Assembly (NCBI RefSeq): GCF_021206925.1
Contig: NZ_JAJPRF010000017.1
Span: 1-64,000, forward strand
Length of the DNA stretch: 64,000 nucleotides
Reading direction: 5' to 3'
Origin: Rhodoflexus caldus
GTDB taxonomy: Bacteria; Bacteroidota; Bacteroidia; Cytophagales; Thermoflexibacteraceae
The notes below the pieces were generated by a model, which did no database searches, was not told the origin of the DNA, and saw nothing but the letters and a program-made list of their open reading frames with translations. Each line of letters starts with the position of its first letter. Positions within the stretch are counted from its first letter, which is position 1. Made by a program: the position numbers and the translations under genes. Below are positions 8,174 through 29,316 of this stretch, piece after piece.

Positions 8174-8214
8174 TTTCCGTTTTGATAAGGCCAACAGTAG
8201 CGTTTAAGTAACGA

Positions 8215-8250: not shown

Positions 8251-8266
8251 ATTGATGACAAAATTT

Positions 8267-9571: not shown

Positions 9572-9608
9572 TCCTCAAACGGACATTTTAAGGGTTTACG
9601 GTAGCTGA

Positions 9609-10370: not shown

Positions 10371-10568
10371 ATCTTTAAGCCGATTAATTACGTTTAATAA
10401 AAGCGAACGGGTCTGCAAAGTTCTTAATTATTTAGAATAGTTTTAAACAAACTGTCGGATTTTTTGCAGCATCTCCCCGATATTTACCCCGCCTTTGCAA
10501 CGCAACTGATGCTTTAATCGTCAGTTTTATATGTGTATTACATCTTTTCCGATTTAAATTCAACTGCT

Positions 10569-12617: not shown

Positions 12618-12646
12618 GTCGGCACAGGGCTTGCAACATTACTCCT

Positions 12647-12654
12647 TACCTTTG
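12647..12654 (+). promoter_or_regulatory. Possible -7 box of lon
   Basis: TACCTTTG fits the TAnnTTTG consensus, 30 bases after the stop of the PorE-like gene and upstream of the lon start codons at 12702 and 12741. Confidence 0.4.
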
Positions 12655-12740
12655 TAAAAAAGGGATTCCGCCGTATTGTCTGCATCAAGTATGATGTAAA
12701 AATGACAATTTGGCATCTTTATCATTATTTGACGGCAACT

Positions 12741-15242
12741 ATGTCACACTATTCTTTTAACGATATTCTATCAATAGCCATGTCGGAAGACGAGGCAGAA
12801 GATTTTATTCCGCTGATGAAGGGCACAGAGCAATCCATGGAAGAAAACAGCGATTTTCCGGCCGAATTGCCCATATTACCTGTGCGCAATTCGGTGCTAT
12901 TCCCCGGGGTTATTATGCCTGTTACGGTCAGTCGCCAGAAAGCTATTAAGTTGGTGCGCAAAGCCTACAAAGGCGACCGTATCATAGGAGTAGTTACCCA
13001 AAAAAATAATAATGCCGACGACCCCGGATTAGACGACATCTACACCGTAGGTACTGTGGCGCGCATCATGAAACTGATTGCCTTGCCCGATGGTCATACT
13101 ACTATCATCATTCAGGGGCGGCGCAAGTTTCATTTGGATGTCATTCTGCGCGAGCACCCGTATCTGACCGCTCAGGTTACTTATCTGACCGACGAAATGC
13201 CGGACGAGCGCAAAAAGGATACAAAAGCGTTGGTGCAGTCATTAAAAGAGGCCGCCCACAAAATCATGCGCCTGAATCCTGAAATTCCGCAGGATGCTGA
13301 AATTGCCATCAACAACATAGAGAGCACCGACTTCCTGATTCACTTTCTTTCTGCCAACATCAATGCAGAAGTGAAAGACAAACAGGAATTGCTGGAATAT
13401 AACTCGGTGAAGGAGCGCGGTACAAAGTTGCTGGCACATATGCTCAAAGAGATAGAGCTGCTGCAAATCAAACAGGAAATTCACTCCAAAGCCCACTCCG
13501 ATTTAGACCAGCAACAGCGCGATTATTTCCTCCGCCAGCAAATCAAAGTTTTGCAGGATGAACTCGGTGTGGACGGACACGAGCAGGAAATAGAGCGTCT
13601 TCGCCTTCGCGGTGCTCAGAAAAACTGGCCGGAGGCTGTCGCCAAACACTTTAATAAAGAATTAGACAAAGCCCTGCGCCTGAACCCTCAATCACCCGAA
13701 TTCCCCATTGCCATCAGCTATGCGGAATTTATGGTGGACTTGCCTTGGAACGAGTTTTCCGAAGATACATTTGACCTGAAAAAAGCACAGGCCATCTTAG
13801 ATGAAGACCACTACGGGCTGGCAAAGGCCAAACAGCGCATCATTGAATACTTGGCCGTTCTGAAACTGAAAGGCGGCAATATGCGCGGCCCTATTTTGTG
13901 TTTCTACGGCCCTCCCGGCGTAGGCAAAACCTCGCTTGGGCGCTCCATTGCCAAAGCATTGGGCAGAAAATACATCCGCATGTCGCTTGGCGGCCTGCGC
14001 GACGAGGCCGAAATTCGCGGGCATCGCAAAACCTATATAGGTGCAATGCCCGGCCGCATTTTGCAAAGCATCAAAAAGGCAGGCACAGCCAATCCGGTGT
14101 TTATTCTGGATGAAATTGACAAGGTAGGCAACGACTTCCGCGGCGACCCTGCATCGGCCTTACTGGAAGTACTTGACCCCGAGCAAAACAGCACCTTTTT
14201 AGACAACTATTTGGAGGTAGAATACGACCTTTCAAAGGTGATGTTTATTGCAACCGCTAACTCGCTGGATACCATTCATCCTGCGCTGCGCGACCGCATG
14301 GAAATCATAGAAATTACAGGTTACACACAAGAAGAAAAGGTGCAAATTGCCAAACAACACCTGTTGCCCAAACTTCGCAAAGACCATGGCCTCAAAGCCA
14401 AAGATTTCAGCATAGACGATAAAACCCTGCTGAAAATAGTGGAAGAATATACCCGCGAATCGGGCGTGCGCAATTTGGAACAAAAACTCGGTGCAGTAGT
14501 GCGCCATGTAGCCAAGTGGGTGGCCATGGAAGAGCCTTATCAGAAGCGGATTAAACCCTCTGATGTGGAGGCAATTTTGGGTGCTCCCATTTTTGACCGC
14601 GAAATGTATCAAAACAACAATTTCGCAGGCGTTGTAACAGGTTTGGCATGGACACAAGCGGGCGGCGAAATCTTGTTTGTGGAAGCAAGCCTCAACAAAG
14701 GCAAAGGAGCGCTTACCTTGTCAGGGCAGTTGGGCGACGTAATGAAGGAGTCTGCCATTACGGCACTTTCCTATCTGAAAGCGCATGCCGATGAGCTTGG
14801 TATAGACCACCGCATTTTTAATAATTACGACCTTCATATCCACGTTCCGGCAGGCGCCGTACCCAAAGACGGTCCCTCGGCAGGTATTACCATGCTGACC
14901 GCATTGGCTTCCCTCTACACACAGCGAAAAGTAAAAGACCGCTTGGCAATGACCGGCGAAATCACGCTGCGCGGGAAAGTATTGCCCGTGGGCGGTATCA
15001 AAGAAAAGCTGCTGGCTGCCCGACGTGCAGGTATCAACGAAATCGTACTGTCTGCCCGCAACCGCAAAGATGTGGAAGAGATAGACACACAATACCTCCA
15101 CGATTTGACCATCCACTATGTAGAAACCATAGATGAGGTGCTCCAAAAGGCACTGCTGCCCGAAAAAGTAGCCAAACCCATGCATTTTGAGGTGGAAACC
15201 ACACCGCAGGTAACTACCAACGGACAGACTGCGGGGGCGTAG
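12741..15242 (+). CDS. lon: ATP-dependent protease Lon
   Basis: Lon degrades damaged and regulatory proteins in the cytoplasm. The 833-residue protein has the LonA layout: an N-terminal substrate domain (LPILPVRNSVLFPGVIMPV), the AAA+ module with Walker A GPPGVGKTS (about residue 390) and Walker B VFILDEIDK, and the C-terminal protease with the serine in DGPSAGIT (about 712) and the lysine in GGIKEKLLAARR (about 755). The start ATG at 12741 gives MSHYSFNDIL; ATGs at 12702 and 12780 are possible. Confidence 0.96.
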   Translation: MSHYSFNDILSIAMSEDEAEDFIPLMKGTEQSMEENSDFPAELPILPVRNSVLFPGVIMPVTVSRQKAIKLVRKAYKGDRIIGVVTQKNNNADDPGLDDIYTVGTVARIMKLIALPDGHTTIIIQGRRKFHLDVILREHPYLTAQVTYLTDEMPDERKKDTKALVQSLKEAAHKIMRLNPEIPQDAEIAINNIESTDFLIHFLSANINAEVKDKQELLEYNSVKERGTKLLAHMLKEIELLQIKQEIHSKAHSDLDQQQRDYFLRQQIKVLQDELGVDGHEQEIERLRLRGAQKNWPEAVAKHFNKELDKALRLNPQSPEFPIAISYAEFMVDLPWNEFSEDTFDLKKAQAILDEDHYGLAKAKQRIIEYLAVLKLKGGNMRGPILCFYGPPGVGKTSLGRSIAKALGRKYIRMSLGGLRDEAEIRGHRKTYIGAMPGRILQSIKKAGTANPVFILDEIDKVGNDFRGDPASALLEVLDPEQNSTFLDNYLEVEYDLSKVMFIATANSLDTIHPALRDRMEIIEITGYTQEEKVQIAKQHLLPKLRKDHGLKAKDFSIDDKTLLKIVEEYTRESGVRNLEQKLGAVVRHVAKWVAMEEPYQKRIKPSDVEAILGAPIFDREMYQNNNFAGVVTGLAWTQAGGEILFVEASLNKGKGALTLSGQLGDVMKESAITALSYLKAHADELGIDHRIFNNYDLHIHVPAGAVPKDGPSAGITMLTALASLYTQRKVKDRLAMTGEITLRGKVLPVGGIKEKLLAARRAGINEIVLSARNRKDVEEIDTQYLHDLTIHYVETIDEVLQKALLPEKVAKPMHFEVETTPQVTTNGQTAGA

Positions 15243-15330
15243 GTAACAAAAAAGAATGTTAAAAAGTTAAGTTGAGTATTGGTAAGGACTAAACACCGCG
15301 CTAAATTCGCGGTTCAAAAAATTGTGATAA

Positions 15331-17445
15331 ATGGCAATCATTACACGAATTAGGCAACTTTCTACTGCGGTTATCGCGGTTATTTTCATTGCGCTGGGGC
15401 TTTTCATTGTTGGCGGAGACTTGTTATCTCCCAACTCTTCCATTATGAACATGTTCAATAGTAAGGAAGTAGCCCGTATCAATGGTGTAAGTATCTCACC
15501 TCAGGAATTTAGCGAACAACTGAACATCAGCCGAGCAAACTTGGCCAGTCGTTTGGGGCGCAGCGTTACCGAAGCTGAATCGGACTTCCTGCGCTATGAG
15601 GCTTTCAATGAGTTGATTTACAAATATGCCATGGTGCCTCAGATGGAAAAATTAGGCCTGATGGTAACGCCTGAAGAGGTAGTTGATATGGTTCAGGGCA
15701 ACAATATCCATCCTGAGTTGCAAGAAGCGTTCAGAAATCCGCAAACAGGCGAGATTGACAGAAACCAGATTATCACCTTTTTGAACAATTTGGCTTCTTT
15801 GCCGGCAGAACAACGTGCACAGTTTGAAGCGTTCGAGCGCTCACTGGCTCCTGCACGTCTCAGACAAAAGTATTCTCACCTGATGTTGTATTCAACTTTT
15901 GCCACCAAGCAAGAAGCCCAAACATACTATCACGACATCAACAATCGCCGTACAATCAAATTTTTGTACGTGCCTTTTACTTCCATCCCGGACTCTGCCA
16001 TCAAATACACAGAAAGCGACTTGCAGGCTTTCCTGAACGCCAATCAGTCTAAATATAAGCGCAAGGAAAACCGTGCGATAGAGTATGTAACCTTCCCGTT
16101 CAAGCCTTCATCCAAAGATACGGCGGCAATCAAAGCACAGGTGATGCGCTTGAAAGAAGAAATGGCTGCACTACCTGAGTCCGATTTGGAAGTATTTGTT
16201 ACCAACAATTCCGATTTCGGAAACTCTTACCGCGACTTCAAACCCGCAGACATTCCCGAAGAAATTCCGGCTGACAGCCTTAAAGTGGGTGCTGTGGTTG
16301 GCCCATACCTGAAAAATGGTTTCTATGTGGTATATCGCATCGTGAAATCAGGTCAGGATTCAGTGAGCTCTGCAAAGGCAAGCCATATCCTGTTCCGCTT
16401 CGGCGATGATAAAAATAAGGCCAAAGAGGAAGCCGAAAAGATTTTGGCACAACTGAAAAGCGGTGCAGACTTTGCTTTCATGGCCAACATGTACAGCCAA
16501 GACCCGGGCAGCCAATCACGCGGCGGTAACTTGGGCTGGTTTACCGAGAAGCAAATGGTAGAACCTTTTGAGAAAGCCGTAATGAATGCTACCAAAACAG
16601 GTCTGATTCCTAACTTGGTTGAAACAGAATACGGCTATCACATCATCAATGTTACAGGTTTGAAAACCCGTACAAAATATACCATTGCAGCCATTGCAAA
16701 AGAACTGTTGCCAAGCGAGGCTACCAAAAATGAGGCCTTTATGAAAGCAGGTGAATTTGCAAAAGCTAAAACCGCGAAAGAATACACCGAAAAAGTAATT
16801 GCTGCCAAAGATTTGATTAGCATTCAGGCACTTACCATTCCGGAAGATGCGCGCAGCATCAATAACCTAACAAGCCCTAAAGTAAAAGAAATTGTACGTT
16901 GGGCTTATGCCGATGAGCGCAACATCGGCGACGTTTCCGAAGTGTTTGAGTTAGAAGACCAATATTTGGTAGCCATGCTCCGCGGTGGTTCAGAAGAAGG
17001 TGATGCCAGAGTAGAAGACGTACGCGAGCAATTAATTACCGACTATCGCAAAGAGAAAAAAGCGGAAATGATTCGCGAGAAACTCTCTAAATTGAAAGGC
17101 AACACTCTGGAAGAACTTGCGAAAGGTTACGGTGCAGGTGCTGAAATTATTGAGCAACCCGACGTAACACCTCTTACATCTGGTATCCGTCAGGCTAACT
17201 ATGCGCCTAATGTGGTAGGAGCGACTTATGCACTGAAAAAAGGTGAGCGTTCAAAAATCGTGAAAGATGACTATGGCATGTTCATTATTGAGGTTACACA
17301 AGTTGATGATGCCAGCGAACTTGCAGACTACGCCACCTACAAGAATCAGATTGAAGAGCGCCGCAGGTTGCAAACCGAAGACAATATCATTAAAGCCATT
17401 AAGAAGTTGGCAAAAGTGAAAGATAACACTGCCCGTTATTTTTAA
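15331..17445 (+). CDS. Membrane-anchored peptidyl-prolyl isomerase, PpiD/SurA type
   Basis: The 704-residue protein has one N-terminal membrane anchor (about residues 9-32), a SurA/PpiD-like N-terminal chaperone region (45-250), and a parvulin domain (about 347-445) recognised by KASHILFRF, AKEEAEKILAQLKSGADFAFMA, GGNLGWFTEKQMV and TEYGYHIINV. A long C-terminal half extends into the periplasm. The layout is that of PpiD, which helps fold proteins as they leave the Sec translocon. It follows lon by 88 bases and may be co-transcribed with it, a sensible pairing in envelope protein quality control. Confidence 0.9.
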   Translation: MAIITRIRQLSTAVIAVIFIALGLFIVGGDLLSPNSSIMNMFNSKEVARINGVSISPQEFSEQLNISRANLASRLGRSVTEAESDFLRYEAFNELIYKYAMVPQMEKLGLMVTPEEVVDMVQGNNIHPELQEAFRNPQTGEIDRNQIITFLNNLASLPAEQRAQFEAFERSLAPARLRQKYSHLMLYSTFATKQEAQTYYHDINNRRTIKFLYVPFTSIPDSAIKYTESDLQAFLNANQSKYKRKENRAIEYVTFPFKPSSKDTAAIKAQVMRLKEEMAALPESDLEVFVTNNSDFGNSYRDFKPADIPEEIPADSLKVGAVVGPYLKNGFYVVYRIVKSGQDSVSSAKASHILFRFGDDKNKAKEEAEKILAQLKSGADFAFMANMYSQDPGSQSRGGNLGWFTEKQMVEPFEKAVMNATKTGLIPNLVETEYGYHIINVTGLKTRTKYTIAAIAKELLPSEATKNEAFMKAGEFAKAKTAKEYTEKVIAAKDLISIQALTIPEDARSINNLTSPKVKEIVRWAYADERNIGDVSEVFELEDQYLVAMLRGGSEEGDARVEDVREQLITDYRKEKKAEMIREKLSKLKGNTLEELAKGYGAGAEIIEQPDVTPLTSGIRQANYAPNVVGATYALKKGERSKIVKDDYGMFIIEVTQVDDASELADYATYKNQIEERRRLQTEDNIIKAIKKLAKVKDNTARYF

Positions 17446-17471
17446 TAGCTTTTCAGGCAATTTAAAATTAC

Positions 17472-17502
17472 AGCCCCAACTTTTGGTTGGGGCTTTTTTT
17501 TT
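17472..17502 (+). terminator. Terminator after the PpiD-like gene
   Basis: A 9-bp GC-rich stem (AGCCCCAAC at 17472-17480 with GTTGGGGCT at 17486-17494), a five-base loop and a run of nine T. This is a textbook intrinsic terminator. Confidence 0.95.
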
Positions 17503-17607
17503 ATCTATCTTAGGCCAATTTTTAATAATTTGGCAAAACTTAGTGTTGAACAATAAAAAAATGTTAGTAAGACAACTTTTTTGCCGCACATTTCTCAATA
17601 ATTGCAT

Positions 17608-18714
17608 ATGAATATTGAACGTTTGGAAAATTGGGGTATGCCTTCAACGGTTGAAACAGACGTAGCGGTGGCATCCCGAAAGAAACCTTTTATTATTGCA
17701 GGGCCTTGCAGTGCCGAAACTCCCGAACAGTTGTTGGCTACTTGCAGAGGGCTGGCTAATACCGGCATCAATGCATTGCGTGCAGGTATCTGGAAGCCGC
17801 GTACCCGCCCCAACAGCTTTGAAGGAGTAGGAGAAGTAGGTTTGCAGTGGTTTAAAGAAGTTCGCGATGAATTAGGCATACCGATTGCCACAGAGGTAGC
17901 CACGGCAGCACATGTTGAGTTAGCATTAAAATATGGTGTAGATATTCTTTGGATAGGTGCGCGCAGTACGGTTAATCCTTTTACCGTACAGGAAATAGCA
18001 GATGCTTTGAGAGGAGTGGATATTCCTGTGATAGTAAAAAACCCCCTAAACCCCGATTTGGCACTGTGGATAGGCGGTATGGAGCGCATTGCCAATGCCG
18101 GTATTACCAAATTGGCAGCCATGCACAGAGGATTCTCAACCTTTGAGAAAACCAAATACCGCAACATCCCCATGTGGCAAATGGCCATAGAGTTGCGCAG
18201 CCAAATGCCTGAACTGCCTATTTTCTTTGACCCCAGCCATACCGGAGGCAAGCGGGAGTTTATTTACCCGCTTTCGCAAAAAGCCCTTGATTTGGACTAT
18301 GACGGCTTGATGATTGAGTCGCACATAGACCCCGATAACGCATGGAGCGATGCTTCGCAGCAGGTAACGCCGGAGCGGTTTGCCGAAATCCTTAGCGAAC
18401 TGAAAATCAGGGAAGTAACATCTGACAATACAGAGTTTCAAAGCGTCTTGGAGGAACTACGCAACAAACTGGATTTAATTGACCGTGAAATTGTGGAGCT
18501 GCTTGCATCGCGCATGAACATCGTTGAAAAATTAGGGACTTACAAACGCGAAAACAACGTGGCTGTATTTCAGGTGGACAGATGGATTAAAGTATTTCAG
18601 TCACGGCCTGAATGGGGCGAAAAGATGGGCTTAAATAAGGATTTTATAGGCCATATTTTCAAACTCATTCACGATGAGTCCATTCGCATTCAGACCGCCA
18701 AAATTAGCGACTAA
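17608..18714 (+). CDS. Fused DAHP synthase / chorismate mutase
   Basis: The first about 260 residues are a type I-beta 3-deoxy-7-phosphoheptulonate synthase (FIIAGPCSAETPEQ, ALRAGIWKPRTRPNSFEGVG, DPSHTGGKRE, LMIESHIDPDNAWSDASQQ), the entry step of aromatic amino-acid synthesis. The last about 90 residues are an AroQ-type chorismate mutase (LRNKLDLIDREIVELLASRMNIVEKLG with the conserved R, D and E). The fused mutase probably also provides feedback control by prephenate or aromatic products, as in other fusions of this order. The ATG at 17608 gives 368 residues. Confidence 0.95.
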   Translation: MNIERLENWGMPSTVETDVAVASRKKPFIIAGPCSAETPEQLLATCRGLANTGINALRAGIWKPRTRPNSFEGVGEVGLQWFKEVRDELGIPIATEVATAAHVELALKYGVDILWIGARSTVNPFTVQEIADALRGVDIPVIVKNPLNPDLALWIGGMERIANAGITKLAAMHRGFSTFEKTKYRNIPMWQMAIELRSQMPELPIFFDPSHTGGKREFIYPLSQKALDLDYDGLMIESHIDPDNAWSDASQQVTPERFAEILSELKIREVTSDNTEFQSVLEELRNKLDLIDREIVELLASRMNIVEKLGTYKRENNVAVFQVDRWIKVFQSRPEWGEKMGLNKDFIGHIFKLIHDESIRIQTAKISD

Positions 18715-18738
18715 TCAACACCGCTTTTTATTGCCTCC

Positions 18739-18776
18739 GCCGCTCAAAGACAATTTGGGCGGCATTTCTTTTTTAT
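18739..18776 (+). terminator. Terminator after the DAHP synthase gene
   Basis: A 10-bp stem (18739-18748 with 18754-18763, including one G-T pair) and a five-base loop are followed by a T-rich tail, 24 bases after the stop codon. Confidence 0.75.
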
Positions 18777-18846
18777 CAATCTTTGCTCCCTGTTTTTACG
18801 TATGGCATACATATGGCTATTTGAGTAATCGATTAAATTTTTTGCT

Positions 18847-19500
18847 ATGAAAAAGTTGTTTGGGCTGATTGTGCTTTTCCTTATCACAGGAGCAGGCCTA
18901 CGTGCGCAGAACTTCTCAAAAGATATGTGGCACGATGGAGAAGTGGATTTGTTTTCCGGCGAAACTATCAGGGGAAAAATCAAGTACGATTTGGACAATA
19001 ACTCCTTGCAGGTAACTACGGGAGGAACGGTGCGTTCTTTCAGCTCCTATCAAGTGGAATCTTTCCAGATTTTTGACGATTTACAAAAAACGCCACGTTC
19101 GTTTTACACCTTGCCTTACAAAAAAGCCGGTAATTATGACAGCCCGGTTTTTTTTGAGTTGTTATACGAAGGAACCAAACTAACTTTGCTTAACCGAGAG
19201 GTGTTCATTCAGCGCGCCATCGGTGCGCCTAATCCTTGGGGGTGGGGGTGGTGGGGGCCTCGAATGGGTATGGGTACTACCGTTGTGCAGTTAGACAGCT
19301 ACTATGTGCTGGATATGGCAAAAGAGCAGGTAATAAAGCCGGGCGACCAACGAACCGACTGGCTGCCACTGATGAAAGACTTCCGCGACGAGATGAGTGA
19401 GTTTATGCGGGCTAACAAACTTTCCGTTACCGAGCGGAAAGATGTTTTGAAAATTATGGCTCACTACGACGAACTTGTTAAAACTGCCTCCAACAAATAG
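18847..19500 (+). CDS. Exported protein of unknown function
   Basis: I do not recognise this 217-residue protein. It has a clear signal peptide (residues 1-21, ending GLRAQ). A short beta-rich part (residues 25-70, DLFSGETIRGKIKYDLDNNSLQV) reads like proteins annotated as exported and involved in mineral or metal response, but that is only an impression. A striking Trp/Gly-rich patch (about residues 128-142, NPWGWGWWGPRMGMG) interrupts the middle. The C-terminal third is helical and charged. It stands alone between two terminator-like or AT-rich gaps. Confidence 0.75.
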   Translation: MKKLFGLIVLFLITGAGLRAQNFSKDMWHDGEVDLFSGETIRGKIKYDLDNNSLQVTTGGTVRSFSSYQVESFQIFDDLQKTPRSFYTLPYKKAGNYDSPVFFELLYEGTKLTLLNREVFIQRAIGAPNPWGWGWWGPRMGMGTTVVQLDSYYVLDMAKEQVIKPGDQRTDWLPLMKDFRDEMSEFMRANKLSVTERKDVLKIMAHYDELVKTASNK

Positions 19501-19541
19501 TGCAGGGTGAAGGCAAGAAAAAAAACATAAATCATATTGAT

Positions 19542-19566
19542 ATATGAAAATATGTTTATATATTTG
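19542..19566 (+). promoter_or_regulatory. Proposed ArsR operator and -7 box of arsR
   Basis: Positions 19542-19558 (ATATGAAAATATGTTTA) are identical over 17 bases to 26849-26865. The -7 box TATATTTG (19559-19566) follows at once, so a bound repressor would cover the promoter. This fits autoregulation of the ArsR gene starting at 19590. The site belongs to a family of four with consensus ATRAAWAYATGTTTR. Confidence 0.6.
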
Positions 19567-19589
19567 CACTGTTATTCATTTATACAGCT

Positions 19590-19901
19590 ATGGACATAGA
19601 AACGATTGCGTTGCGAATTGATACGGAAAAACTGGAACGGGCTGCTTTTGTGCTGAAGGCTGTGGCGCATCCGGTACGTATTGCAATTATAGATTTATTA
19701 GACCAGTGTGGCCGCCTGAATGTGAGCGAGTTGCAAAATAAGTTAGAGATAGAGCAGGCTTTGTTGTCGCACCACCTGACTAACATGCGCGACCGCGGCA
19801 TTCTCACTGCCGAGCGCGAAGGTAAATGTATTTACTACTCACTGACCGATACAACCATCACCAATATTATCCACTGTATCAACAGTTGCACACGATTTTA
19901 A
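19590..19901 (+). CDS. ArsR-family repressor with four cysteines, probable sulfide sensor
   Basis: The 103-residue protein has the ArsR/SmtB winged helix: LKAVAHPVRIAIIDLL, recognition helix region LEIEQALLSHHLTNMRDRGIL, and wing REGKCIYYSL. Cysteines are at 40 (end of helix 2), 80 (wing), 96 and 100 (last helix). Persulfide-sensing relatives SqrR, BigR and YgaV use one cysteine in helix 2 and one in helix 5. The pairing of C40 with C96 or C100 is similar in outline, though C40 sits a few residues later than in SqrR. A metal sensor is the alternative. The neighbours (persulfide dioxygenase, SQR) favour sulfide or persulfide as signal. It starts 92 bases before the dioxygenase gene, probably in one operon. 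Confidence 0.85.
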   Translation: MDIETIALRIDTEKLERAAFVLKAVAHPVRIAIIDLLDQCGRLNVSELQNKLEIEQALLSHHLTNMRDRGILTAEREGKCIYYSLTDTTITNIIHCINSCTRF

Positions 19902-19993
19902 TTATCTGAAAAACTGACGTAAGTCATTTTTTATCAGCTTTAATTTTTTGACTTTTACTTTTAGTTGATTCATTTTTTTAAACTATACAAACC

Positions 19994-21388
19994 ATGAAAA
20001 TCGAGCAATTGTACACAGGTTGTCTGGCTGAGGCAGCCTATTTTATCGAGTCAGCCGGCGAGGCTGCTGTGATTGACCCCATCCGTGAAACTGAGCCTTA
20101 CATAAAGTTGGCACAGGAACGCGGTGTTAAAATCAAGTACATTTTTGAAACGCATTTCCATGCCGATTTCGTATCCGGCCACTTGGATTTGTCGCACGCC
20201 ACAGGAGCGCCTATCGTATTCGGCCCTACTGCGAAGGCACAGTTTGACTATATTGAAGCCAAAGACGGTGAAATTTTTGAAATAGGCGATGTTACACTGA
20301 AAGTGCTGCATACGCCCGGACATACGCCGGAATCCATGTGTTTGCTGCTCTACGATGAAAACGGTAAGGAACATGCCGTATTCACAGGCGATACACTGTT
20401 TGTGGGTGATGTAGGTCGTCCTGACTTGCTGGACGGTGTTATTATCTCCAAAGAAGAGCAGGTAAGCAACCTGTACGATAGCTTGAACAAGAAAATCAAA
20501 ACTCTGCCTGATGATGTAATTGTATATCCCGGACATGGCCCGGGTTCACTTTGCGGCAAAAGCATCGGCAAAGAAACTCAGTCCACCATTGGCAGAGAGA
20601 AAATGTTTAACTACGCGTTGCAACCGATGACGCGTGAAGAATTTACCCAAATTATTCTGGCAGACCAGTTGCCTGCACCTCAATACTTCGTTAAAAATGC
20701 CATCATTAACCGAACCGGTTATGAGTCAATTGACGAGGTGTTAGGTCGCAACGTACAGCCGTTGGGTGTTACATCGGTAGAATTAGAAATAGAAACCGGT
20801 GCGTTGGTATTAGACACCCGCAACTCCGATGTGTTTGCAATAGGCCATATCCCTAATTCGCTGCAAATAGCGCTGGATGGTTCTTTTGCCGTATGGGTGG
20901 GTACACTCATTACCGATATCAAACAACGGATTGTAGTAGTAGCCGACAAAGGCCGTGAGCGCGAAACCATTCTGCGTTTGGCACGCGTAGGCTACGAAAA
21001 TGTTGCCGGTTATCTGGAAGGTGGTTTTGATGCATGGCGCGAAGCAGATATGCCTGTGGCCACTACCGAAGTGATTACTGCCGAAGAATTAGAGCGAATT
21101 TTTGATGCCGCCACTACAAAAATTTTGGACGTGCGCCGCACCAACGAGTACAAAGGCGGTCATTTGCCTAACGCCATCAACATCCCGCTGCGCGACTTAG
21201 AAAAGAATCTGCACCAGTTGAATCCGAAGGAACGCTACTTTGTGCATTGCGCCGGAGGTTATCGCTCTATGATTGCGGCTTCTATTCTGGCACGCAATGG
21301 CTATAACAAAGTGGTGAATGTGAATGGAGGCATGGAGGCTATTGCAAAAACCCATCTGCCTGTACTCTCAGAAACACAGATGGCATAG
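19994..21388 (+). CDS. Persulfide dioxygenase fused to two rhodanese domains
   Basis: The N-terminal 250 residues are an ETHE1-like metallo-beta-lactamase fold: His54, His56, Asp58, His63, His110, Asp132 and His180 match the metal-binding set, and GDVGRPDLL is typical of persulfide dioxygenases, which oxidise glutathione or other persulfides to sulfite. Two rhodanese domains follow. The first (about 255-355) has Asp317 where the catalytic cysteine should be and is likely structural. The second (about 360-455) has the active loop CAGGYRS with Cys418. A sulfur-transfer step joined to the dioxygenase is expected. The gene follows the ArsR repressor and precedes sqr. It acts in the cytoplasm. Confidence 0.92.
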   Translation: MKIEQLYTGCLAEAAYFIESAGEAAVIDPIRETEPYIKLAQERGVKIKYIFETHFHADFVSGHLDLSHATGAPIVFGPTAKAQFDYIEAKDGEIFEIGDVTLKVLHTPGHTPESMCLLLYDENGKEHAVFTGDTLFVGDVGRPDLLDGVIISKEEQVSNLYDSLNKKIKTLPDDVIVYPGHGPGSLCGKSIGKETQSTIGREKMFNYALQPMTREEFTQIILADQLPAPQYFVKNAIINRTGYESIDEVLGRNVQPLGVTSVELEIETGALVLDTRNSDVFAIGHIPNSLQIALDGSFAVWVGTLITDIKQRIVVVADKGRERETILRLARVGYENVAGYLEGGFDAWREADMPVATTEVITAEELERIFDAATTKILDVRRTNEYKGGHLPNAINIPLRDLEKNLHQLNPKERYFVHCAGGYRSMIAASILARNGYNKVVNVNGGMEAIAKTHLPVLSETQMA

Positions 21389-21456
21389 ACAGTAACTCAA
21401 AAACTGAGGCGGTTTTTAAGTGCCGCCTTAGTTTTTTAAAAAAAACATTTTTATAT

Positions 21457-21471
21457 ATAAATATATGTTTG
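21457..21471 (+). promoter_or_regulatory. Proposed ArsR operator overlapping the sqr -7 box
   Basis: ATAAATATATGTTTG differs from the arsR site at three of 15 positions and from 26835-26849 at two. The -7 box TATGTTTG (21464-21471) lies inside it. The sqr ATG is at 21509. So sqr appears to have its own promoter under the same repressor. Confidence 0.6.
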
Positions 21472-21508
21472 TACATTAGCTGCTACACACCAGTAACATA
21501 TAATCAGT

Positions 21509-22723
21509 ATGAAAGCCAATCTCAAATCACACTATCAGGTATTAATTGCCGGTGGAGGCAATGGAGGAATATCGGTGGCTGCACAGCTATTGCGCAAACA
21601 GTCTAATTTGGATATTGCCATTATTGAGCCTTCCGATAAGCACTATTATCAGCCTGCATGGACTCTTGTAGGCGGCGGAGATTTTGATATTAATGATACA
21701 GTTCGCAATGAAGCCGATTTTATTCCCAAAAATGCGGCATGGATAAAAGATAAGGTTGCACAATTTGTACCCGACGAAAACAAGGTCATACTGGCCGGTG
21801 GCGATGCGGTTACTTACGATTGGTTAGTAGTTTCTATCGGCATACAACTCAATTGGTCTGCTATTAAAGGGTTGGAAGGCAACTTGGGTAAAAATGGCAT
21901 TACTTCCAATTATCTCTTCAATGTTGCTCCTTACACGTTTGAGTGTATCAAAAACTTTAAAGGCGGGAAAGCAATTTTTACCAATCCGAGTACACCTGTT
22001 AAATGCGGAGGCGCGCCTCAAAAAATTATGTACTTGGCTGCCGATTATTTCCGCAAGCATGGTATATTAGATAAGGCCGATATTCATTTTTACTCCGGTG
22101 GCGGTGTAATTTTCGGTGTAAAAAAATATGCTGAAACACTTAACAAAGTTATTCAGCGATACGGTATCAAAACGCACTTCAAGCACAATTTGGTAGAGAT
22201 TCGCGCCGATGAGAAGAAGGCGATTTTTGAAACCGAGCAAGACGGTCAAAAAGTACAAGTAGTTGAAAACTACGAGTTTATACATGTAACTCCGCCACAG
22301 TCTGCACCGGATGTAATTCGTACAAGTCCGTTGGCAGTACCCGACTCTCCGGGAGGATGGTTGGATGTGGACAAAGGTACTTTGAGGCACAACCGATACA
22401 AAAACGTATTCGGAATTGGCGATAATACAAGCACGCCCAATGCCAAAACAGGTGCCGCCATTCGCAAACAAGCTCCTGTTTTAGTTGAAAATTTATACCG
22501 CAGTATTACAGGGCAACAAATGGATGCCATGTACAACGGTTATGGCTCCTGTCCGTTGGTTACAGGCTACGGCAAATTAGTGTTGGCAGAGTTTGACTAC
22601 AACAACGAGCCTATCGAAACATTTCCCTTTGACCAAGGAGAAGAACGCTGGACAATGTATCAACTCAAAAAGCGCGTATTGCCGTGGCTGTACTGGAATA
22701 AAATCCTGAAAGGAACAGCTTAA
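21509..22723 (+). CDS. sqr: Sulfide:quinone oxidoreductase, type II (SQOR-like)
   Basis: SQR oxidises sulfide at the membrane and passes electrons to quinone, producing persulfide. The 404-residue flavoprotein has the FAD loop GGGNGG at 15-20, the second flavin motif NVFGIGDNTSTPNAKTGAAIR, and the two redox cysteines of the family at 166 (VKCGGAPQK) and 348 (GYGSCPLVTGYGK). This pair and the C-terminal membrane-binding WTMYQLKKRVLPWLYWNKI match the type II group that includes human SQOR. The gene follows the persulfide dioxygenase by 120 bases and is followed by the DUF6132 gene after nine. Confidence 0.95.
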   Translation: MKANLKSHYQVLIAGGGNGGISVAAQLLRKQSNLDIAIIEPSDKHYYQPAWTLVGGGDFDINDTVRNEADFIPKNAAWIKDKVAQFVPDENKVILAGGDAVTYDWLVVSIGIQLNWSAIKGLEGNLGKNGITSNYLFNVAPYTFECIKNFKGGKAIFTNPSTPVKCGGAPQKIMYLAADYFRKHGILDKADIHFYSGGGVIFGVKKYAETLNKVIQRYGIKTHFKHNLVEIRADEKKAIFETEQDGQKVQVVENYEFIHVTPPQSAPDVIRTSPLAVPDSPGGWLDVDKGTLRHNRYKNVFGIGDNTSTPNAKTGAAIRKQAPVLVENLYRSITGQQMDAMYNGYGSCPLVTGYGKLVLAEFDYNNEPIETFPFDQGEERWTMYQLKKRVLPWLYWNKILKGTA

Positions 22724-22732: not shown

Positions 22733-22924
22733 ATGTTAATCAAGTATAAAAAATGGTTGCTTGCTTCGGCAGGTATTTTGGTAGGTGGCATTGCCGGATG
22801 GGCATTCTGGTACTACATCGGTTGTGAAAGCGGCACCTGCCCGATTACTTCCAATCCGTATCGCAGCATGGCATACGGTGCAGTGATGGGTCTGTTACTG
22901 TTTTGGCCGGAGCGAAGCGAGTAA
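22733..22924 (+). CDS. Small DUF6132 membrane protein
   Basis: The 63-residue protein has two membrane segments (about 8-29 and 45-58) joined by a short loop with two cysteines, C31 and C36, in GCESGTCPITSNPYRS. This loop is the signature of the DUF6132 family, whose members in Bacteroidota commonly sit beside rhodanese, thioredoxin or sulfur genes. It lies nine bases after sqr, so it is co-transcribed. A role in moving or binding sulfur or persulfide at the membrane is inferred from context only. Confidence 0.88.
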   Translation: MLIKYKKWLLASAGILVGGIAGWAFWYYIGCESGTCPITSNPYRSMAYGAVMGLLLFWPERSE

Positions 22925-22947
22925 AACGCTGCTGTTTTGTAATTGCA

Positions 22948-23088: not shown

Positions 23089-24573
23089 CTAAATCAGTCG
23101 GATACCAATCATCATGATGTCATCAAGTTGTTTTTGCATGGTTTGCTCCTGCCAGTCTTGCAGTTTTTCAATAAAAATATCCTTTTGCTCGGCCATAGGG
23201 CGGCTGTGAATTTCAAGTATTAACTCCCTCAGGCGGCGAATACCAAATCGCTTGTTTTTAGGGCCGCCAAACTGGTCTTGATAGCCATCGGAGAAGAGGT
23301 AGCACTCCAACGGTTGTTCAAAAGAAAAGTAATGATTGGTAAATGCAGAGGTAGCCATATCATCGCCCCCGATACTGATTAAATCGCCTTTGATATAATG
23401 TAATTCACCGTTTTGTACAATGATAATCGGGCTTTTAGCACCTGCAAAAACCAATTGCTTGCGTGCTTTATCTATACGTATCAGCGCAATATCCATCCCG
23501 TCTTTATTGAGAGTTTCGCGCTGTTTGAGCACTTTTTGAATAGCCAAGCGCATTTCCGCTAAAATAGCATCGGGCGTAAGAACACCGTGTTCTACAACAG
23601 CCTGCTCCAACAAGTTATTGCCAATCATACTCATGAAAGCACCCGGTACGCCGTGCCCTGTGCAATCGGCAGAGGCTATGAATATATACCCGTCTTTTTC
23701 CTGCAACCAATAGAAATCACCACTGACAATATCGCGCGGTTGGTATAATACAAAATGCTCGGGTAGTGTTTCAGCCAGTGTTTCATTGAGCGGTAAGATA
23801 GCTTGCTGGATTCGCTGCGCATAGCGAATGGAATCGGTAATCATGCGGTTTTTGGTTTCCAGCTCGCTGTTTTGTACAGCAATAAAGTCGCGTTGTGCCA
23901 AAATTTCCTCCTGCTGCGAAAGCAGTTCGGCTTGTGCAATTTCAAGGCTTTGATTTTTTTCGTCTAACTGTTGCAGTGTCTTTTTTAATGCCAAACTGTT
24001 AATAAAATTGCTTTTTAGGATATAGTAGCGAAAGATAGAGATGGAAAAAGAAACCAAACCCACCACAAAAAAGCCCGGAAACTCACTTGAAACAAAGAAA
24101 TCGAGTAAGGGCTTGTCGCAAAAAGCAATGAAAAATGTAATGTTGATAAAAATAATGAAAGCGAAATTGACAATAAATATTACAGGGTAAAGAATCGTCA
24201 TAACTGCCGCAGCAATGAAACAGATGATATTGGACACTAAGTAGGGCACCCAGTCCACACAATTGGGGCGATAGGCTGCCGAAGTAAACAGAGCTACTGC
24301 AATTACCTCAAAAACAATCTCGTGCCGAAATTTAAAAATGCGCTGTAACGCAATAGTGGCCAGAATTACGGGAGTAGGAAACAACATCATGAACCACCAA
24401 AGCGATTCGTTGTCTTTGGGAATATGCAACTGCGACAAAATACCGGTAGGGTAGAAGAGTGCAGCCACGAGCCCGCCCCAAATCGCATACCAAGTGCCGA
24501 TGCGTTTATATTCTTTTTGCCATTCGGGTTCAAATTCGCTTAGGTTCAGGTACTTAGGCAGTAGAAATTTCAT
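23089..24573 (-). CDS. Membrane SpoIIE-type serine phosphatase
   Basis: The 494-residue protein has about six membrane segments (residues 27-190), a coiled coil (about 195-255) and a C-terminal PP2C/SpoIIE phosphatase domain (about 265-494). Metal-binding residues are in place: SGDFYW, SADCTGHGVPGAFMS, DGMDIALI, LFSDGYQDQFGG and QLDDIMMIG. Such proteins dephosphorylate anti-anti-sigma factors in stress signalling. Its start is 17 bases after the carotenoid-oxygenase stop, so the two probably share a transcript. No partner switch genes (RsbV/RsbW) are nearby. Confidence 0.9.
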   Translation of the reverse strand: MKFLLPKYLNLSEFEPEWQKEYKRIGTWYAIWGGLVAALFYPTGILSQLHIPKDNESLWWFMMLFPTPVILATIALQRIFKFRHEIVFEVIAVALFTSAAYRPNCVDWVPYLVSNIICFIAAAVMTILYPVIFIVNFAFIIFINITFFIAFCDKPLLDFFVSSEFPGFFVVGLVSFSISIFRYYILKSNFINSLALKKTLQQLDEKNQSLEIAQAELLSQQEEILAQRDFIAVQNSELETKNRMITDSIRYAQRIQQAILPLNETLAETLPEHFVLYQPRDIVSGDFYWLQEKDGYIFIASADCTGHGVPGAFMSMIGNNLLEQAVVEHGVLTPDAILAEMRLAIQKVLKQRETLNKDGMDIALIRIDKARKQLVFAGAKSPIIIVQNGELHYIKGDLISIGGDDMATSAFTNHYFSFEQPLECYLFSDGYQDQFGGPKNKRFGIRRLRELILEIHSRPMAEQKDIFIEKLQDWQEQTMQKQLDDIMMIGIRLI

Positions 24574-24590
24574 TGAACAATAGTTGCCTG

Positions 24591-26759
24591 TTAAAAATTT
24601 GGATAGACGTATTGATTAAAAATTTGACTAATTTCTTGTCTGATTTGTTTGTTGCGTATTTTGCCAAGCATGTAATCGTAATCCTCCCTGATGTTGATTA
24701 CATAGTCAGGGTTTGTATTGGGTTGTGCATCGGGCACCCATACGGTATGGATAGTAAACCCGAAGGACATATCGGGGTGGTTTAATTTGCAAACAGGCCC
24801 TTTGGCGAGGGCTGTGGCATCAAAAATCCAGATTTCAGGTTGGTAATCGTATGTGCCATCCGAAAGCGGATAGCCTACGGAAACCGTTGTCAGTATGTAA
24901 CCATCTTTGTAGGGTGGTATATCGCTGCGAGGTTCGCTGCGAGGTACAAACTGCAATGACCAGAAGTAGGTTTCTTTGTCAAATGTGTAAAAATCATCTA
25001 CTGTCATTCCTGCGGTTTCCAGACAAAAGAGGGTGTACTGCGAGCCTTGGCGCGTGGCTTCCAAAACCTCCGGTACAGGCACTTTGCGGTTGCGTTTGGG
25101 GTCGTCGTACAGGTTGCGAATAAATACGGTAAGCATATCGGGGCGGAGGCCGTAGCTCTGCCAGTACATATGCGTAATATCGTCTGTTGTGTTATCCGCC
25201 GAGCACATATCGCGGTGGGTGTATAAACCAATACCCCACGTGTGTGCTTCGCGGTTATTGGTATTGTAATAATATTTGCTGTGGTCGGCGAGGTAAGTTC
25301 CGTTCTTGGCATCCATTACTATGCGGCCTACTTGACCTACGTCCATTGCGCCTACGGCCAGCAACCCTACTTTGTCTTTGCGAATCGGTTGCTGCGGATT
25401 AACAGCCTCGCGGTCGTAGGAGCGAATCCATTCGGCAGGGCAGGCAGAGCAGTTATGTGCCGAAAACATGGTAATAATGCCATAAGGATTTTTATAGTTC
25501 ACCGAAAAGTGAACGGTTTCTATCGGAATGACAATTTTTTTTGCCTTCACATGTTTTACATCGGGGCGCAGGTCTGCCCGATGCACCAGATAAATATCGG
25601 TTGAGTCTTGCTGTACGCCACTGGTGAGTTTGCGCATAAACGCATCTATATCTTCCTTGTCGGGAAACACGTTGTACAGCATCACATCCAAGCTAAACTT
25701 AAAAGCGGCATCAATCAGGATGATATAATCCTCGCTGAAGCCGATTTGGTGCATATTTTGGTCAATGAGCAAGCCGTTGCCGTCTTGGTCTGTAACTTCC
25801 CATTGCTGCATGGCGCCTTGCCCGTTCCATCTCATCAGATAAACTGCGTTTTTATTGCTGATGGACGAATCTATTTTGCCTAAAATTTTGGCTTTCAGCC
25901 AGTTCCATATTTTCTCCCAAACAGAATTTTGCGGAATGTATTTGTTTTCCAGTCCGCGGATAAATCCGGCCGCGCGGGTAAGAAAATCTTCGCGCGAGAG
26001 GTTTTCTTTTTCCACTATCCGCATAAAGTTGCGGATGCGCTCTTCCAATCCGTCGGGGTCGGTTTCCAGCCAACTAAAAATGGTCGTGGAAGCCATCAGT
26101 GCTTCATCGGTTTTGGTAAAGTTTACCGTAAACAACTCGCGGGTGCGCGGGTCAAATACAGGGTGTGCCGTTGTCAGCACCATGGCAAAAGGTTGGCGCA
26201 TGAAAGGCGGCGTTCCGCCACGCCATTCTTTATTAGCGCCAATGGGTGTAATTAGGTTGAGGGTATGCGGGTCAAACTCAAAGGGGCGGCCTGCATCAAA
26301 AGTAGCCAGCAGGCGTGTGTGCTTATCATTGCCGAATTTGACAGGCTGAACGGCAGTGTTAATCTGATTTCGCGTTCCCATTTTAATGGAAATGCGCGCC
26401 AGCCCTAAATTCATGAAACCGTATTTTTTGTGCCAAACCGTGCCGCGCATCGTTGCTTCGTCGGCGTAATAGCAGGGAGTGCGCATCAGCCCCGTACTCA
26501 GCAGTACCTGACCTTTTTTTGTTAAATCAAATTTAAGAATTAAACCATCGCCGTTGATAACAGGTGTGCTGTATTCCTGCGCAATGCTGCCGTCCGAGTA
26601 GCGCTCCGTATAGGGAAGGCCGTTGGTATTAACCGTTCCCACGGCAGAGTTAATGAATACAAAGCCTTGTAAATCAGTAGGAACAGTTCCCTCTTTAACA
26701 TCTAATGCGATTTGATTCAACTCTTTGCGGCTGGCAGCAAGCAGGGGGCGCGGAGACAT
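24591..26759 (-). CDS. Carotenoid-oxygenase family protein with large insertions
   Basis: The 722-residue protein belongs to the carotenoid/stilbene cleavage oxygenases (RPE65-like seven-blade propellers with Fe(II)). All four iron-binding histidines can be placed: His199 (TAHPVFDP), His337 (NMHQIGFSEDY), His417 (ETVHFSVNY) and His671 (FTIHTVWVP). It is about 200 residues longer than usual, mainly from a helical insert at about 215-305 and long loops after 430. No signal peptide is seen. The substrate is unknown; a carotenoid, apocarotenoid or stilbene is possible. It starts 99 bases from the divergent DUF2490 gene and has a possible -7 box at 26776-26783. Confidence 0.88.
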   Translation of the reverse strand: MSPRPLLAASRKELNQIALDVKEGTVPTDLQGFVFINSAVGTVNTNGLPYTERYSDGSIAQEYSTPVINGDGLILKFDLTKKGQVLLSTGLMRTPCYYADEATMRGTVWHKKYGFMNLGLARISIKMGTRNQINTAVQPVKFGNDKHTRLLATFDAGRPFEFDPHTLNLITPIGANKEWRGGTPPFMRQPFAMVLTTAHPVFDPRTRELFTVNFTKTDEALMASTTIFSWLETDPDGLEERIRNFMRIVEKENLSREDFLTRAAGFIRGLENKYIPQNSVWEKIWNWLKAKILGKIDSSISNKNAVYLMRWNGQGAMQQWEVTDQDGNGLLIDQNMHQIGFSEDYIILIDAAFKFSLDVMLYNVFPDKEDIDAFMRKLTSGVQQDSTDIYLVHRADLRPDVKHVKAKKIVIPIETVHFSVNYKNPYGIITMFSAHNCSACPAEWIRSYDREAVNPQQPIRKDKVGLLAVGAMDVGQVGRIVMDAKNGTYLADHSKYYYNTNNREAHTWGIGLYTHRDMCSADNTTDDITHMYWQSYGLRPDMLTVFIRNLYDDPKRNRKVPVPEVLEATRQGSQYTLFCLETAGMTVDDFYTFDKETYFWSLQFVPRSEPRSDIPPYKDGYILTTVSVGYPLSDGTYDYQPEIWIFDATALAKGPVCKLNHPDMSFGFTIHTVWVPDAQPNTNPDYVINIREDYDYMLGKIRNKQIRQEISQIFNQYVYPNF

Positions 26760-26834: not shown

Positions 26835-26865
26835 ATAAATACATGTTTATATGAAAATATGTTTA
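26835..26865 (+). promoter_or_regulatory. Two proposed ArsR operators between divergent genes
   Basis: Two motif copies lie nearly side by side: ATAAATACATGTTTA (26835-26849) and ATGAAAATATGTTTA (26851-26865). The second, with the two bases before it, is identical to 19542-19558 at the arsR promoter. The first matches the sqr site at 13 of 15 positions. The double site sits between the carotenoid-oxygenase and DUF2490 genes and touches the proposed DUF2490 start codon. Confidence 0.55.
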
Positions 26866-27596
26866 AAGTGCAGGTCTGTATAACAATTCTAACCATTTAT
26901 TCCTTGCTGATTTTTTCACCTGCCCATGCGCAGCTACATATGAACTGGTGGACAAGGTTGTCAATTACAACGCCCGTTAGTTCTGTTTTCTATACAGAGT
27001 TGGAAGGTCAGATTCGCCGTCAGAACAATTATTTTTCCGAATCGGGTTGGAATCCGACAACGGCACACTTAACCCACAGCCTTCGCTTGTTCGTTCATTA
27101 CAGACCATCTGCTAAGTTTTCGGCAAGTATTTCACCGTTTACTTGGTTTGCATCAAGTCCCGTTATTGTTGCTCCTTCCGATGCAGAGGCACCATTGCAG
27201 CACGAAATTCGCCCGTCCATACTGGCTGAGTGGCAGCCGACACTTACGAACAAGTTATCGGCAGCAGCGCGTACATGGGTAGAATACCGCGATTTTCAGG
27301 GAACCCCCAATGACCTGGTGCGATTCAGGCAGCGGTTGGGGGTGCGTTACCGCATGGCTGATAAATGGCAACTTTTTATGGCCAATGAATTGCTGCTGCA
27401 CGTATATGGTGCAGAAAAAAATCAGTTGTATGACCATAATCGCTTGATTTTCAATATTAATTATAAGCCCAATCCAAAATGGCGGATTGAGTTGGGTTAC
27501 ATGTATGCCAACCGATTGTTGCGCAATCGGATGCAATACATTGATGAAAGTAACCTTATTACACATTTCTATTACACACTGCCTAAGAAAAACTAA
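26859..27596 (+). CDS. DUF2490 outer-membrane-like protein
   Basis: The 245-residue protein has a signal peptide (residues 1-25, ending SPAHAQ) and alternating beta-strand pattern typical of DUF2490, a family predicted to form outer-membrane barrels. Blocks such as RFRQRLGVRYRM and NPKWRIELGYMYANRLLRNRMQY are characteristic. The function is unknown. It is followed after 16 bases by the SoxB-like gene, so the two form an operon. The ATG at 26859 is the only start giving a signal peptide; it overlaps the proposed operator, which is odd and may mean that translation starts differently. Confidence 0.8.
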   Translation: MFKVQVCITILTIYSLLIFSPAHAQLHMNWWTRLSITTPVSSVFYTELEGQIRRQNNYFSESGWNPTTAHLTHSLRLFVHYRPSAKFSASISPFTWFASSPVIVAPSDAEAPLQHEIRPSILAEWQPTLTNKLSAAARTWVEYRDFQGTPNDLVRFRQRLGVRYRMADKWQLFMANELLLHVYGAEKNQLYDHNRLIFNINYKPNPKWRIELGYMYANRLLRNRMQYIDESNLITHFYYTLPKKN

Positions 27597-27612: not shown

Positions 27613-29316
27613 ATGACAATGAAAAAGCAACATGAACGCAGGGATTTCCTCAAACAATTAAGTGCAATAAGTATTGGCGGCGCAACGTTTTCCGCGCTGC
27701 CTTTCAGTGCAGAGGCTCATCGGGAAGAAAAGCCGCAAGAAACTCAAAATCAGAACTTTACTATCAATTTATTGCAAACTACCGACGTGCATTGCCAACT
27801 GCACGCACACGACGAACTGTTCTGGGAAAACGGGAAAGCCGTTTTTCGCAAAGCAGGCGGTTATGCACACATGGCAACCTACTTGAATGAGTTTCGCAAA
27901 AAAAATCCGTACACTTTTTTAGTTGATACGGGTGATATGTTTCAGGGTAGTGAGCTTTCGGTTAAAACCAAGGGCAAAGCGTTGGTTCCTATCCTGAATC
28001 AACTGAACTACGACCTGTATCTGCCGGGCAACTGGGAAGTGGTGTATTACAAAAAAACAATGCAGCAACTGCTCGGCTCGCTCAATGCACCGAAGGTTTG
28101 TACTAATATGTACCACGACCTCGGCGACGGCAAAAAGGGTGAGTTGATTTTCCAACCTTACCATATTTGGCATGTAAACGGCATTAAAATCGGTTTTATC
28201 GGTTATACCGACCCGCTGGTACCGATTCGCCAATCTCCCAATTACAGTAAGGGGATTATTTATACACAGCCCGAAGAAAATATTGCCTATTATGTAGATG
28301 TATTGCGCAATCAGGAGCAATGCCATTTTGTCATTTTGCTTTCGCACTTGGGGCTTTCGCAGCAAATTCACTTGGCCAACCTGCCCGTTTGCGAAGGAGT
28401 GGACTATATTTTCGGCGGCGATACACACGAGCGCGTGCGCACACCGATTGTCTGCAAATATGCCAAAGTGGTAGAACCGGGGGCGTTTGGTTCTTTTGTA
28501 GGTAAGCTGGAATTGACCGTACAGAACGGCAAAATCGTAAAAGACGAATACGAATTAGTGGAAATCAGCAGCACACGCTACAAGCCCGACAAGGCAATGG
28601 AAGCGCTGATAGCAGAAAATGAGCATCCGTTTTTGGAAGACTTGCAAACCATTATCGGCTACAGCACGCTGCCGCTTTATCGCTATTTCGTTATTGAAAA
28701 TACGATTGACACCATGATTCTGGATGCGCTGTACTGGAAGTTGCAGAAAGAATACAACGTAGATGTGGTGCTTTCCAACGGTTTCCGATTCTGCTCGCCG
28801 CGGGCTACTCCCGACAAAACAGGCAATATTCCGATTAACAGCGCCTTCTTGTACGAGATGTTGCCGGTGGACAGCACAGTGCGCGTGGCGCAGGCAACAG
28901 GCAGGCAAATCAGTGAATGGCTGGAAAAAGAGTTGAACAACGTGTTTGCCAAAAATGCTGCCGAACGCTTTGGCGGATGGGTAGTGAAATTTAAAGGCAT
29001 GAAAATCACTTTCAACGCGCATGGTGAAAAAGGACAGCGGGTGCAAAGTGTTCTTATCAACAACGAGCCGTTAAACCCCGATAAGACCTATACACTCTGC
29101 GCCTGTGAACGCGACGGCGACCCCGAAGATGTACTTTGCCGCATGAAAGGTGTTAAAAATATGAAAAATACACCTTTCACGCTACACATGGTCATGAAGG
29201 ATTATCTGAAAGCCAACAGCCCTGTAACGCCTAAACCTGCTGTTTCTGCTAAGGCTTTGGATGTGCCGCAGGATTTGCTCACACAGGTGCGCGGAGTAGA
29301 TTACCAGTTTCAATAA
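27613..29316 (+). CDS. SoxB-like Tat-exported metallohydrolase
   Basis: The 567-residue protein starts with a Tat signal (RRDFLKQL, residues 9-16). It has the 5'-nucleotidase/SoxB two-domain layout: metal-binding Asp58 and His60 (TTDVHCQLHAH), Asp105/Asp108 (VDTGDMFQG), and GGDTHER. The usual nucleotidase motif GNHE is replaced by GNWE (139-142). SoxB has GHWE here, so the His-to-Trp position matches SoxB. Further SoxB-like segments are EPGAFGSFVGKLEL and, in the C-terminal domain, ERFGGWVVKF with GEKGQRV. SoxB hydrolyses sulfate from a SoxYZ carrier in the periplasm, but no soxYZ, soxA or soxX is in the window. A plain nucleotidase is the alternative. The ATG at 27619 is another possible start. 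Confidence 0.8.
   Translation: MTMKKQHERRDFLKQLSAISIGGATFSALPFSAEAHREEKPQETQNQNFTINLLQTTDVHCQLHAHDELFWENGKAVFRKAGGYAHMATYLNEFRKKNPYTFLVDTGDMFQGSELSVKTKGKALVPILNQLNYDLYLPGNWEVVYYKKTMQQLLGSLNAPKVCTNMYHDLGDGKKGELIFQPYHIWHVNGIKIGFIGYTDPLVPIRQSPNYSKGIIYTQPEENIAYYVDVLRNQEQCHFVILLSHLGLSQQIHLANLPVCEGVDYIFGGDTHERVRTPIVCKYAKVVEPGAFGSFVGKLELTVQNGKIVKDEYELVEISSTRYKPDKAMEALIAENEHPFLEDLQTIIGYSTLPLYRYFVIENTIDTMILDALYWKLQKEYNVDVVLSNGFRFCSPRATPDKTGNIPINSAFLYEMLPVDSTVRVAQATGRQISEWLEKELNNVFAKNAAERFGGWVVKFKGMKITFNAHGEKGQRVQSVLINNEPLNPDKTYTLCACERDGDPEDVLCRMKGVKNMKNTPFTLHMVMKDYLKANSPVTPKPAVSAKALDVPQDLLTQVRGVDYQFQ

Follow-up and report, generated by a model that had tools for sequence, protein, structure and literature searches.

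The DNA analysed here is a 64,000-nucleotide stretch of a Rhodoflexus caldus contig (hereafter, the window) encoding a metallohydrolase that resembles the thiosulfohydrolase SoxB, and no genes for the Sox carrier are found in the window. The first-pass annotation had described a Tat-exported metallohydrolase with GNWE in place of the GNHE of nucleotidases and the GHWE of SoxB; the open reading frame, the export signal and residues 139–142 have all been verified. The protein combines a calcineurin-type metallophosphatase domain with a 5′-nucleotidase C-terminal domain (Pfam PF00149 and PF02872), and its N-terminal HERRDFLKQL motif scores 17.6 bits on the Tat signal model TIGR01409, against a cutoff of 16.7. 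Its gene, its motifs and its neighbours are listed in Table 1.

Table 1. Features of the window around the SoxB-like gene, in window coordinates
Feature	Position	Strand	Remarks
ArsR-type regulator	19590..19901	+	upstream of the dioxygenase gene
MBL-fold protein with two rhodanese domains, persulfide/sulfur-dioxygenase-like	19994..21388	+	PF00753, PF00581 x2 (domains only)
SQR type III-like sulfide:quinone oxidoreductase	21509..22723	+	NF049943 E 9e-67, below its cutoff
Small membrane protein downstream of SQR	22734..22925	+	read from sequence; also in sister species L091
DUF2490 outer-membrane-like protein	26859..27596	+	PF10677 E 7e-22; 16 bp upstream of the SoxB-like gene
SoxB-like Tat-exported dinuclear metallohydrolase (GNWE family), 567 aa	27613..29316	+	alternative start 27619
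TTDVHCQ motif, residues 56-62, metal-ligand positions D58 and H60	27778..27798	+	aligned with UshA and SoxB
GNWE motif, residues 139-142	28027..28038	+	Asn nucleotidase-like, Trp SoxB-like (GHWE)
GGDTHE motif, residues 268-273	28414..28431	+	Asp for the metal-ligand His of GGHTH, in the whole family
SNGFRF motif, residues 388-393	28774..28791	+	matches SoxB SPGVRW / SPGFRW, unlike nucleotidases

Residues D58, H60, D108, N140, H245, D270, and H272, which we take to occupy the positions of the UshA metal ligands, are invariant among 41 aligned relatives. The dinuclear site therefore looks intact as judged from sequence, with Asn and Asp in place of the two His of SoxB. GNWE is likewise invariant in all 41 relatives and is thus no chance variant. 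A second active-site change, absent from the first-pass annotation, is GGDTHERV, where both SoxB and the nucleotidases have a GGHTH-type motif; every GNWE member examined has GGDTH (or GADTH, or GNDTH). The GHWE and GGHTH-type ligands of SoxB occur neither in the window protein nor in those members. Also missing is the GNHE motif with its His, the catalytic residue of UshA, which is replaced by Trp in 41/41 aligned members.

These residues bear on the reading implied by public annotation, in which the protein is a 5′-nucleotidase, or another phosphoesterase, that accompanies sulfur genes by chance. Like UshA, it has the two-domain architecture and most of the metal ligands, including the Asn of GNHE, and a copy on a Runella slithyformis plasmid (64% identical) is annotated as a “bifunctional metallophosphatase/5′-nucleotidase”. 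However, the Trp at the catalytic-His position, together with the phylogeny and the consistent sulfur-gene context described below, makes such a role quite improbable.

The resemblance to SoxB noted in the first-pass annotation is real. The protein matches the SoxB model TIGR04486 (E 7e-75), scoring 252 bits and thus lying below the curated equivalog cutoff of 550. Its best PDB matches by sequence are Thermus SoxB entries 2wdc and 4uwq. The AlphaFold2 model (pLDDT 86, pTM 0.85) finds the same SoxB entries as best Foldseek matches (4uwq/2wdc, TM 0.79/0.82), with nucleotidase 3ivd close behind (0.74/0.84). The entry 4uwq, described as a disulfide-linked SoxB–SoxYZ complex, has a Cys at the position of the GHWE Trp, which aligns with the Trp of GNWE. 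For this reason, the Trp of GNWE and GHWE probably marks the seat of the carrier sulfur, and it is kept in the GNWE family.

The TIGR04486 score was rejected as proof of SoxB identity and is a weak guide when used alone, because a GNHD nucleotidase-like protein reaches 277 bits on the same model. That protein (L087:6069-7679) is encoded directly upstream of a GNWE gene and outscores the GNWE protein itself, so that below the cutoff the model separates the two poorly.

A phylogenetic tree was built from ten nucleotidases, six SoxB, seven SoxB-like proteins with a GHWD motif, three haloarchaeal proteins with GNWD, and fifteen GNWE proteins; two of the SoxB came from annotated sox operons and four from SoxY-bearing genomes of the phylum. 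The nucleotidases were split from all of the Trp-bearing proteins with a support of 100/98, and placement of the GNWE proteins with nine of the nucleotidases, or with the remaining one, was rejected (p-AU 0.0036 and 0.0016). The protein thus falls on the SoxB side and not within the 5′-nucleotidases, the placement that the first-pass annotation had named as counting against its reading. In a first tree, which had few and very long nucleotidase branches, a split uniting GNWE with the nucleotidases was not rejected (AU p 0.35); this split equates to GNWE as sister to SoxB, GHWD, and the archaeal proteins together, and is therefore no test of nesting among nucleotidases. The branching order of GNWE, GHWD, and SoxB was not settled (p 0.058; support 84/82). 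The GHWD proteins, from Sphingobium plasmid pANTQ-1, Hymenobacter, and Cnuella (L071), group near GNWE in the tree; unlike GNWE members, they retain His both in GHWD and in a SAHTH motif, and are about 480 aa long.

A scan using one genome per species recovered 67 GNWE loci, all of them in Bacteroidota as judged by record title and roughly 62–95% identical over nearly the full length. The nearest named relative of the window gene at the genus level is from a Bernardetiaceae metagenome-assembled genome (MAG; 87%). Members scoring at least 610 bits were present in 20 of the 392 Bacteroidota genomes sampled, and the next match dropped to 312 bits. The GNWE proteins are a distinct and tightly conserved branch of the SoxB lineage, found here only in Bacteroidota.

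We then searched the whole genome of the window for SoxY, SoxZ, and SoxA. None was found over the cutoff, and the same searches were positive in other genomes of the phylum, so the lack of soxYZ in the window extends to the whole genome. (Taken by itself, the exclusion of SoxY from the 20 family-positive genomes is not notable; p 0.40.) The protein shares with SoxB the fold, the Tat-type export signal, the Trp of GxWE, the Arg-aromatic motif and its side of the tree. However, because its score is less than half the curated cutoff, its motifs are GNWE and GGDTH rather than GHWE and GGHTH, and its genome is without SoxYZ or SoxA, classification as SoxB is not warranted. SoxB surveys that apply the curated cutoff or require SoxYZ would miss the family, which public annotation calls a 5′-nucleotidase.

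The sulfide oxidation cluster reported near the gene is present, with the SQR, persulfide-dioxygenase-like and ArsR genes at 19590-22723. In a sister species (L091), the run from ArsR through the dioxygenase and SQR to the SoxB-like gene is intact, and the SoxB-like protein is 95% identical. The first-pass annotation had also proposed the DUF2490 protein as a partner of the hydrolase. It is indeed the adjacent gene by Pfam (the open reading frame was listed from a TTG at 26790; the likely start is the ATG at 26859). The partnership itself was rejected: besides the window, DUF2490 is found near only 5/73 SoxB-like loci, and in the sister species it survives as a gapped remnant with stop codons, and the carotenoid-oxygenase-like gene is likewise reduced to a remnant (both in L091:7105-7974). 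DUF2490 is a dispensable, incidental neighbour. On the minus strand of the window, between the SQR and SoxB-like genes (23089-26759), lie genes for a SpoIIE-type phosphatase and a 722-aa RPE65/carotenoid-oxygenase-like protein; neither was found intact at that place in L091.

Across the family, the association with sulfur genes held: one or more of eight families of sulfur genes are represented within about 8 kb of the hydrolase gene in 63/73 related loci, and in 45 of the 49 loci longer than 15 kb. The commonest neighbour is a TsdA-like diheme cytochrome (48 of the 73 loci), followed by a DsrE-like gene (41), the two halves of a YeeE/YedE transporter (35 and 34), an MBL-rhodanese protein (29), rhodanese (24), TauE (23), and SQR (13). 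An OprD-type porin is found near 35/73 loci. The DsrE-like gene is often immediately adjacent to the SoxB-like gene; its product begins with a signal-peptide-like segment, contains a single invariant Cys, and finds the DsrE-type structure 1l1s as a match. On the Runella plasmid, the run comprises TauE, MBL, cytochrome c, DsrE, SoxB-like, OprD, YeeE, and DUF6691 genes. The whole cluster occupies a single run of this 44.7-kb plasmid (L187; NC_015705, pRUNSL04; 7856-20289), which suggests horizontal spread.

In the genome of the window, the sulfur gene set is spread over four contigs, and the main partners of the hydrolase (TsdA-like cytochrome, DsrE-like protein, YeeE/YedE, and OprD porin) are on contigs other than its own. 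Contig 11 carries the TsdA-like gene and two OprD porins, contig 21 the DsrE-like gene, and contig 3 a YeeE/YedE pair, TauE, and a Crp-type regulator; the SoxB-like, SQR, dioxygenase and ArsR genes are in the window. The TsdA-like protein (L168:8725-9783) matches Allochromatium vinosum TsdA (4wqc) with an E of 2e-49, and SoxA with an E of only 6e-4.

The nearest sulfur genes, both in the window and in L091, are those of the ArsR–dioxygenase–SQR run and not TsdA. This would suit an enzyme that detoxifies organic sulfur compounds rather than one that takes part in thiosulfate oxidation; its substrates would be, for example, Bunte salts (glutathione- or cysteine-S-thiosulfonates) that arise from SQR persulfide and sulfite. 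We consider such a function improbable, given that the TsdA-like gene is the commonest neighbour over all loci and that the window's own genome has one.

Co-occurrence was scored over the 392 genomes with profiles A1 and A2, themselves derived from genes neighbouring the hydrolase. TsdA-like genes (E <= 1e-20) were present in 15/20 family-positive genomes compared to 34/372 others (p 3e-11), and DsrE-like genes in 12/20 compared to 9/372 (p 1e-12), with both p values ignoring shared ancestry. Five of the 20 family-positive genomes have no TsdA-like match and eight have no DsrE-like match. Among the genomes that lack the hydrolase, the nine with a DsrE-like gene all have a TsdA-like gene as well, and the two genes were close together in each of the five hydrolase-free genomes inspected. 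Because such pairs occur without the hydrolase, TsdA–DsrE looks like the core pair, with the GNWE hydrolase added in some lineages.

In four of these five genomes, the TsdA–DsrE run includes a Tat-type protein of ~230 aa. Its gene lies beside the TsdA-like gene, with no SoxB-like gene, at L213:6143-8473, L214:6987-8749, L215:6509-8688, and L216:6289-8482; two of the proteins were checked and had no Pfam match. A DsrE-like gene is in or next to each run; in L214, the DsrE-like match and the Tat-type open reading frame are on opposite strands, and no separate open reading frame was called for the match.

A precedent for a SoxB that works with TsdA comes from Erythrobacter flavus 21-3, in which deletion of tsdA or soxB almost abolishes the formation of sulfur globules (PMC7608252). 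In that organism, thiosulfate use is blocked in the ΔtsdA strain, whereas loss of soxB leads to a build-up of tetrathionate with no production of zero-valent sulfur; sulfur dioxygenases operate later in the pathway. Its SoxB had been annotated as a metallophosphatase/5′-nucleotidase, and Bacteroidetes are mentioned among the genomes with both tsdA and soxB (PMC7608252). A 2025 survey also reported some MAGs with SoxB as the sole Sox gene, several of which have TsdA (PMC12345210). The TsdA–SoxB–sulfur dioxygenase pathway is therefore already known, and the Bacteroidota GNWE module would be a variant of it. Common to both are a TsdA homologue, a SoxB homologue annotated as a 5′-nucleotidase, an MBL/rhodanese dioxygenase (in the window's genome, the protein encoded at 19994-21388, assigned by domains only) and no need for SoxYZ. 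The module described here differs in that it occurs in Bacteroidota rather than Alphaproteobacteria, has a GNWE/GGDTH active site, and includes DsrE-like, split YeeE/YedE, and OprD partners. Neither a GNWE/GGDTH family nor a DsrE carrier acting in such a role was described in the part of the literature covered by our search.

Based on these observations, we conclude that the gene product is probably a periplasmic, thiosulfohydrolase-like, sulfonate-cleaving hydrolase of a SoxYZ-free thiosulfate/sulfide oxidation module of Bacteroidota. Most likely it works downstream of TsdA, and our best inference is that its substrate is either a small sulfur compound or a carrier other than SoxYZ. Against this reading stand the score below the SoxB cutoff, the two active-site residues unlike those of SoxB, the close Foldseek match to nucleotidase 3ivd, the location of the partners on other contigs in this genome, the family-positive genomes without a TsdA-like (5/20) or DsrE-like (8/20) match, and the TsdA–DsrE pairs that occur without the hydrolase.

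The reactions and their order may be as follows. OprD-type porins would pass thiosulfate over the outer membrane, and the TsdA-type diheme cytochrome would oxidise it to tetrathionate. Tetrathionate would then either be used directly or react with a thiol, for which the periplasmic DsrE-like protein with its invariant Cys is the probable source. The GNWE hydrolase would release the terminal sulfonate as sulfate, and the sulfane sulfur would stay behind. This sulfur, or thiosulfate, would be imported by the split YeeE/YedE transporter and join persulfide made by SQR; the rhodanese-fused dioxygenase would convert it to sulfite for export through TauE.

A narrower version of the favoured explanation is that free tetrathionate is hydrolysed directly, as by E. 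flavus SoxB, and that the DsrE-like protein is an accessory sulfur carrier. We regard this as a serious possibility, albeit one at somewhat less than even chance. The co-occurrence of TsdA-like genes with the family, the E. flavus genetics, and the close relationship of GNWE to the GHWD proteins, some of which lie in similar clusters, are in its favour. However, the frequent immediate adjacency of the DsrE-like gene suggests a closer role for its product, the GNWE motif is unlike that of both SoxB and the GHWD group, and the E. flavus evidence is genetic in kind.

A route with the DsrE-like protein as candidate periplasmic carrier is plausible. SoxB hydrolyses the small molecule trithionate, and tetrathionate forms thiosulfonate adducts on a carrier Cys (PMC5336275), the latter making a DsrE-carrier variant chemically reasonable. 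In its fullest form, which we put forward only tentatively and think rather unlikely, there would be a Sox-like cycle in which the DsrE-like protein replaces SoxYZ, a TsdA-type cytochrome loads its Cys with thiosulfate directly or via tetrathionate, and the GNWE hydrolase strips off sulfate, using an Asn/Asp instead of a His/His second metal site. If the module as a whole is real, numerous heterotrophs among the Flavobacteriia, Cytophagia, Saprospirae, and Chitinophagia bear an unrecognised capacity for thiosulfate oxidation, in one case on a plasmid, and the DsrE-like protein is a testable candidate substitute for SoxYZ.

SoxB-like genes of the GHWD and GNWD types were also observed on plasmids. 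The Sphingobium GHWD-clade gene lies on conjugative plasmid pANTQ-1, in a stretch (L197:6580-20887) with DsrE, ArsR, YeeE, DUF6691, SQR-like, TauE, DsbA, cyd, and MBL genes, and with no annotated sox genes. The GNWD proteins of haloarchaeal plasmids (L211:2950-5947 and L192:944-2734) are annotated as 5′-nucleotidases, and their genes adjoin an MBL-rhodanese gene or lie near a rhodanese gene.
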